Below are positions 8,623-9,798 of a DNA stretch of 64,000 nt, piece by piece. This DNA comes from Cyclobacteriaceae bacterium (GTDB lineage: Bacteria; Bacteroidota; Bacteroidia; Cytophagales; Cyclobacteriaceae). A program made the position numbers and the translations under genes. The notes beneath the pieces were generated by a model. That model did not search any database and had not been told where the DNA came from. It saw nothing but the letters and a program-made list of their open reading frames with translations. Location: positions 186,001-250,000 of the forward strand of contig JAEUUA010000004.1 of assembly GCA_016787755.1 (NCBI GenBank), in the 5' to 3' direction. The stretch's first letter is position 1. Every line of letters starts with the position of its first letter.

Positions 8623-9798
8623 ATGGAAAGTTTTAAAGTTGATAATAAAAATGGAACAACCGTCAACCTTCTCCACCGGAGAGGGGTTGGGGGTGAGGTT
8701 CCATATCGACTTATTATAACAGGTGGCGGAACCGGGGGCCATATCTTTCCTGCGTTGGCAATTGCTAACGAGTTTAAGAGCCGGCATGCCAATGCGGAAA
8801 TTCTTTTTGTAGGTGCCAAAGGAAGAATGGAAATGACGCGCGTTCCGGATGCCGGGTACAAAATAATTGGACTTTGGATCAGTGGCCTCCAGCGTAAGAT
8901 TACTTTATCCAATCTGTTATTCCCTTTCAAACTGATATCAAGTTATTTCAAGGCGCGAGCAATTATAAATCAGTTTAAGCCTGATGCAGTGATTGGAACG
9001 GGAGGTTATGCCAGTGGTCCGATTTTATTGGCAGCTACCAGTAAAAAAATTCCTTCCTTAGTTCAGGAGCAGAATTCATATGCCGGGCTTACCAATAAAC
9101 GGTTGGGTGAAAAGGTACAGAAAGTGTGTGTTGCATATCCTGAGATGGAGAAATATTTTCCGAAGTCAAAAATAGTATTTACCGGTAATCCCGTGCGGAG
9201 AGATATCATTGATCTTGATTCGAAAAGAGAAAAGGGTAACAACTATTTTGGATTATCGGTCAATGAAAGAACGCTTTTGATTTTAGGCGGAAGTCTGGGT
9301 GCACGGACCATCAATGAAAGTGTGTTGGAAGGCATTGATAAGTTGATCGACTCGAACGTGCAGGTAATCTGGCAGACCGGAAAATTTTATTATGAGAGTA
9401 TCAAGGCTCAGGTTCGGAATAAAGATTTGAGAAGAATTCGGATTCATGATTTTCTGAAACAAATGGATTTGGCATACGCAACGTCTGATGTGGTGATTTC
9501 AAGAGCAGGAGCATTATCCATTTCAGAAATATGTTTGGCGAAACGGCCGTGTATTTTGGTGCCTTCACCCAACGTAGCGGAAGACCATCAGACTAAAAAT
9601 GCAACGATGCTTGTGAAAGAAGGTGCTGCTCGAATGATTAAAGATCGTGATGCTAAAAACTCTTTAATAAGTGAATCATTGAAACTTATTTATGATCAGC
9701 AAGCGTGCAATGCGTTGCGCGATAATATTACCCGATTAGGAAAACCCAGAGCAACAGAAGACATCGTTGACGAAATTGAAAAATTGATTGAAGCATGA
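8623..9798 (+). CDS. murG: UDP-GlcNAc:lipid I GlcNAc transferase with repeat-derived N-terminal extension
   Basis: A 391-residue GT28 glycosyltransferase that converts lipid I to lipid II on the inner face of the membrane. The glycine-rich loop GGGTGGH is at residues 34-40, whereas it normally lies within the first 20 residues. VQEQNSYAGLTNK and SRAGALSISE are further family motifs. Residues about 9-26 are the in-frame translation of hairpin repeat copy 3 (8645-8700), and the family-like sequence begins right after it at PYRLIITGGG. No in-frame ATG, GTG or TTG is present between the ATG at 8623 and that point, so the extension is probably translated. The 3' end overlaps murC by 4 bases. Confidence 0.95.
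   Translation: MESFKVDNKNGTTVNLLHRRGVGGEVPYRLIITGGGTGGHIFPALAIANEFKSRHANAEILFVGAKGRMEMTRVPDAGYKIIGLWISGLQRKITLSNLLFPFKLISSYFKARAIINQFKPDAVIGTGGYASGPILLAATSKKIPSLVQEQNSYAGLTNKRLGEKVQKVCVAYPEMEKYFPKSKIVFTGNPVRRDIIDLDSKREKGNNYFGLSVNERTLLILGGSLGARTINESVLEGIDKLIDSNVQVIWQTGKFYYESIKAQVRNKDLRRIRIHDFLKQMDLAYATSDVVISRAGALSISEICLAKRPCILVPSPNVAEDHQTKNATMLVKEGAARMIKDRDAKNSLISESLKLIYDQQACNALRDNITRLGKPRATEDIVDEIEKLIEA
8645..8700 (+). repeat. Hairpin repeat copy 3, inside the murG coding start
   Basis: An 8-bp stem with one G-T pair (CCTTCTCC 8667-8674 / GGAGAGGG 8678-8685, loop ACC) plus the tail TTGGGGGTGAGGT. It aligns without gaps to 702-757 at 44 of 56 bases. It lies in frame inside murG and adds about 18 residues to the N-terminus, ending directly before the conserved MurG fold. 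Confidence 0.75.

Follow-up and report, generated by a model that had tools for sequence, protein, structure and literature searches.

Protein-coding palindromes are a known kind of element, since examples of them have been published (PMC2229807; PMC3733652). The palindromes of Rickettsia and Wolbachia are dispersed elements that form in-frame fusions with conserved housekeeping genes, whose products accommodate the extra residues; the Rickettsia palindromic elements (RPE) measure 105–146 bp (PMC2229807). The REP sequences, palindromes of 20–40 bp with GTAG or CGTC tags, are mostly intergenic, with some copies in genes, including those of tRNA synthetases, and many at N-termini, although many of these N-terminal assignments may concern REPs that lie outside the coding sequence (PMC3733652).

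The repeat described here was analyzed in a window of 64,000 nucleotides from a Cyclobacteriaceae bacterium (GCA_016787755.1; contig JAEUUA010000004.1, positions 186,001 to 250,000), to which all coordinates refer unless stated otherwise. Like RPE, it lies in frame in conserved protein genes (murG, mogA, aspS, leuS, traG and a histidine kinase gene), in agreement with the likeness to the Rickettsia elements, in a different phylum, drawn by the original prediction. By description the two are set apart, RPE being units of 105–146 bp in an obligate intracellular alphaproteobacterium, while the present units of ~42–54 bp occur in Bacteroidota and flank DUF559 genes. With the GTAG/CGTC REPs the family shares a short palindrome with a conserved stem, but its consensus carries neither tag and it is not found near Y1/RAYT genes; both murG copies read CGTC at the left end by chance, whereas the family does not. 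As in RAYT-REP units (REPtrons), a nuclease gene is bracketed by a palindromic repeat that has many solo copies elsewhere; the bracketed gene, however, encodes a DUF559 domain (PD-(D/E)XK, Vsr-like) rather than an HUH transposase. The accessible text of PMC12907096 describes DUF559 as a Vsr-like PD-(D/E)XK endonuclease domain and discusses Caulobacter VsrA, of the same Pfam domain family as the repeat-flanked DUF559, as a mismatch-repair enzyme; unlike the present case, no repeat association is described in that text. The family differs from the published in-frame palindromes in its phylum, its unit, the lack of a GTAG/CGTC tag or Y1 association, and its DUF559 partner. Very probably, murG contains in frame a solo copy of a DUF559-linked, REP-like repeat, which is tolerated as a disordered tail.

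N-Terminal Extension of MurG

The murG gene (8623–9798, forward strand), recognized from its open reading frame and its profile and PDB matches, encodes a protein of 391 aa with a repeat-encoded N-terminal extension. The match to TIGR01133 (MurG) scores 309.9 bits, against a curated cut-off of 250.25, and begins at residue 29, and PDB MurG chains align from residues 27–30. The conserved sequence, PYRLIITGGGTGGH, comprising beta-1 and the glycine-rich loop, starts at 8701 (8701–8742, forward strand). An imperfect palindrome, TGGAAC...TCTCCACCGGAGA...GGTTCCA, was identified by sequence and folding at 8652–8705, inside the reading frame. The proposals that the repeat encodes residues about 9–26 of MurG and that the family fold begins only after it are thus both upheld, the coordinates being right within a few bases.

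The in-frame codons from 8623 read ATG GAA AGT TTT AAA GTT GAT AAT AAA AAT GGA ACA ACC GTC AAC CTT CTC CAC CGG AGA GGG GTT GGG GGT GAG GTT CCA TAT CGA. As had been predicted, this codon reading contains no ATG, GTG or TTG in frame after 8623 and before CCATATCG (8701). The ATG at 8623–8625 (forward strand) is the only canonical in-frame start before the conserved fold and is common to the sister genome G026 (ATGGAAAGTTT); the next one is located past the GGGTGGH loop. The only alternative starts after the repeat are ATT at 8713 and ATA at 8716, both inside beta-1.

The AlphaFold2 model of MurG (mean pLDDT 85) has pLDDT <50 at residues 1–19 and 21–23 and places beta-1 at residues 29–34, and the repeat-encoded N-terminus is predicted to be a disordered tail before this strand. 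The missing canonical start between the repeat and the GGGTGGH loop, the ATG and frame conserved in two genomes with gene bodies near synonymous saturation, and the parallel case of mogA (see below) are strong, if indirect, evidence that MurG is made with this tail, which would be neutral for the enzyme.

The Repeat Family

The core of the murG copy (8661–8702, forward strand; 194661–194702 of the contig) matches the family covariance model R1 with 55.6 bits (E 5e-15). The same model locates two other copies on the forward strand of the window, one at 607–646, directly past the stop codon of a gene ending at 603, and one at 718–759, where GATGAAGTT directly joins the start codon (ATG, 758) of the following ORF. 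About 57 copies are present in this genome (covariance model, E ≤ 0.01), and the 21-mer core has 16 matches at ≤3 mismatches in the 4.74-Mb sequence vs. 0 for the reversed control. The family consensus is nGTCACCCCTCTCCTCTGGAGAGGGGnTGGGGGTGAGGT, with a core of 42 bp; the murG insert covers about 54 bp. The murG hairpin folds better than shuffled sequences (z −3.66). In the covariance model stem 98.5% of cells are paired, and covariation is 0.189 vs. 0.117 in shuffled data (0/500), with only one column pair changing on both sides, a signal that describes the family as a whole and not selection on each copy. The core lacks stop codons in two of three forward frames and in all three reverse frames, therefore copies can be read through, and in-frame copies would survive where the host protein tolerates extra residues.

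Scanning the 64-kb window against Rfam revealed no family at the gathering score. A repeat search restricted to the window missed the family under the settings chosen, and the whole genome was required to find it. Among plasmids, blastn gave weak matches only, of 80–90% identity and in unrelated organisms, and tblastn found murG homologues, all with <60% identity.

Some copies adjoin start codons. An ATG is located exactly 2 nt after the GAGG motif in 9 of 53 copies of the genus, compared with a background near 0.7 per position; examples are the copy at 718–760 of the window and those at seven other loci. Of the 14 ATGs near repeat copies, 12 begin an ORF that is 80 codons or longer. The repeat is placed as if it supplied the ribosome-binding region.

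Origin of the murG Insertion

The 5′ ends of murG were compared, as the original prediction had proposed, between relatives with and without the repeat. Among 30 murG loci only two carriers were found, this genome and G026 (contig JALHRJ010000109.1), in which the MurG protein is 82% identical and the repeat occupies the same place; it was not found at murG in the other genus members examined. In the 29 repeat-free relatives the nearest in-frame start, a TTG, GTG or ATG (TTG or GTG in most), is located five codons before the conserved PYR in 28 and six codons in one. The repeat-free leader is therefore 5–6 residues long, which speaks against an unrelated, equally long extension in these relatives, and the two carriers have 18 codons more. 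This length difference defines an in-frame insertion of ~54 bp (18 codons) at 8647–8700 (forward strand), with edges good to a few bases.

In G026, murG has a TTG 23 codons (5 + 18) and an ATG 26 codons before PYR. In this genome only the ATG at 26 codons is present, and TTT at 8632–8634 (forward strand) replaces the TTG of G026, probably marking the site of the native start. Given the start 5–6 codons before PYR in the 29 relatives and the TTG at 5 + 18 codons in G026, the native start was not interrupted by the repeat. Thus, of the start shift originally proposed, the use of the upstream ATG stands, while the displacement of the original start by the repeat does not: the native TTG is upstream of the insert and is retained in G026. 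The N-terminal regions of the two genomes are equal in length, with zero indels over 26 codons, and the leader between ftsW and the murG ATG differs in length by 1 base.

The in-frame insertion, its sharing with the sister, the position of the native start, the loss of the TTG, the family membership and the flanking of DUF559 genes are all evident at the level of sequence. In the simplest scenario, about 54 bp would have entered murG in frame a few codons downstream of its native TTG start, before this species and G026 diverged. The ATG three codons above the TTG would then have come into use as the start, the TTG persisting in G026 and later decaying to TTT in this genome.

In-Frame Copies in Other Genes

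The 30 best copies of the genome include in-frame ones in murG, mogA, aspS, leuS, a TPR-containing ORF and the genes for a histidine kinase and a TraG ATPase. They use several frames and both strands; most of the remaining copies are intergenic. In mogA an N-terminal repeat follows the ATG in this genome and in G026, with one whole-codon indel that keeps the frame; in G026 the palindrome itself has decayed. The other relatives examined lack a repeat at mogA, and nearly all of them have an ATG shortly before RIGII. The aspS gene carries an internal repeat-encoded insert of 10 residues (LTPYPSPEERG region) in this genome and in G008; it is absent from the AspRS chain of PDB 6wom and from 12 relatives (G026, G030 and ten others). 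Loss, transfer or repeated insertion are the options for this patchy distribution.

Two further copies among these 30, both reversed, encode the C-terminal residues of TruA and RibF and contribute their stop codons. The copy at LpoB was rejected as an N-terminal extension, an ATG being present directly after the repeat.

Synonymous Divergence of the Inserts

The gene bodies of this genome and G026 are near synonymous saturation (dS about 2.7). Between them, the murG insert has a pS of 0.25–0.34 vs. 0.73 for the murG body; for the inserts of murG (8650–8700) and mogA together, the range is 0.25–0.37 vs. 0.65–0.73 for the bodies. In G026 the pairing of the murG hairpin is retained through a T.G to A-T change. 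The low synonymous divergence of the murG insert is not predicted by simple neutral tolerance; constraint at the DNA/RNA level, gene conversion between copies, or re-insertion may account for the low values of the inserts. The dN/dS ratio of the murG insert was rejected as proof of coding, the insert being too short and the ratio confounded because its synonymous sites are unusually conserved.

Association with DUF559 Genes

A repeat is present within 200 bp of DUF559 genes at 30 of 35 loci of the genus, on both sides at 20, of which 17 have the inverted (−)/(+) arrangement; many of these loci represent one ancestral leuS site and are therefore not independent, the other host genes being separate sites. 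Of 28 DUF559 loci from the rest of the phylum, roughly half also have R1-model matches close by, as counted by eye. By contrast, 30 Y1_Tnp loci yielded 0 matches to R1, and Y1/RAYT was rejected as the partner of the repeat. A family-blind test for flank-to-flank repeats was positive at 25/33 DUF559 loci in the genus and 16/23 outside it, vs. 11/24 Y1 loci, the latter as expected for transposase genes. Across 59 genomes of the genus, the numbers of repeats and of DUF559 genes are correlated (Spearman 0.65, p 3e-8, kinship ignored), with a median of 6 repeats per genome with DUF559 vs. 1 without.

A whole DUF559 domain (PF04480), bracketed by the repeat, is present in frame in LeuRS of this genome, just before the editing domain (G000:C24:266367–266877). 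LeuRS-embedded DUF559 was also seen in many members of the genus and at one locus of another family, and six loci carry the domain in frame in other Bacteroidota proteins. Besides LeuRS, the hosts comprise a class I synthetase with an anticodon domain and DUF5915 (IleRS-like), the B12-dependent methionine synthase MetH, HsdM, HsdR and a type ISP restriction enzyme. The possibility that DUF559 is part of an intein in LeuRS or the other hosts was rejected, Pfam scans revealing no intein/Hint domain. A different palindrome-like repeat, with the reading SPAGGGKGVE / PQPPPAGDRLGV, flanks another DUF559 gene (L217, L216), which suggests that different DUF559 lineages have different repeat variants.

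By association, the family is probably mobilized by DUF559-encoding elements or forms their ends; that DUF559 is the enzyme moving the repeat we infer from this association and from the RAYT-REP analogy. A broader model, which we put forward tentatively and at somewhat less than even confidence, is that such elements, a DUF559 gene bracketed by palindromes, are widespread in Bacteroidota, that the full element lands in frame in essential genes (LeuRS, IleRS-like, MetH, HsdM, HsdR) and is translated without splicing, and that the nuclease scatters solo repeats that extend MurG and MogA. Among the DUF559 papers found, a set thin in subscription papers and hence weak evidence in this respect, titles and abstracts suggest no repeat link, and the partnership looks new.

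Alternative Explanations

The murG repeat could be a 5′ untranslated element, with MurG starting after it at ATT 8713 or ATA 8716. Such an arrangement would agree with the family copies that directly precede start codons (GAGG, 2 nt and ATG in 9/53) and with the possibly extragenic position of many N-terminal REPs (PMC3733652), but no canonical start follows the repeat, ATT or ATA would cut beta-1, and 29/29 relatives keep a canonical start with a leader of 5–6 residues. Moreover, the frame and the ATG of murG are kept in G026 without indels, and mogA, with the same layout, has a whole-codon indel; we regard an untranslated repeat as very improbable. An assembly or binning artefact might be suspected, many of the related genomes being MAGs, yet its probability is practically nil, the same insertion being present in the separately assembled sister (JALHRJ010000109.1) with its 82% identical protein. 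It is also conceivable, though unlikely, that the translated repeat is kept for a function of its hairpin or peptide, such as setting the translation of murG relative to ftsW. The synonymous sites of the insert, more conserved than those of the murG body, and the stem pairing retained in both genomes speak for such a role; against it, synonymous divergence in mogA is similarly low despite the decay of the palindrome in G026, the MurG tail is predicted to be disordered, and no other genus member examined has the insert.

As to the origin of the family, an ordinary RAYT/REP system moved by a Y1 (HUH) transposase would account for the likeness of the units to REP/BIME, both being short palindromes that in some places form inverted pairs, and 14 of these 15 genomes do carry Y1_Tnp genes. 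However, R1 is missing from all 30 Y1_Tnp loci, though many Y1 genes carry their own terminal repeats, and the consensus has no GTAG or CGTC tag, leaving this explanation improbable. The preferred reading remains the tolerated in-frame solo copy of a DUF559-linked repeat.

Implications

The murG locus represents a polarized case, in which the site is empty in 29 relatives and filled in two. It would document the incorporation of a mobile palindrome into an essential enzyme outside Rickettsia, the response of the start codon included. Should the association with DUF559 prove real, a dispersed repeat family of Bacteroidota would gain a candidate enzyme, and it would become apparent how nuclease genes can reside in essential genes in the absence of splicing.
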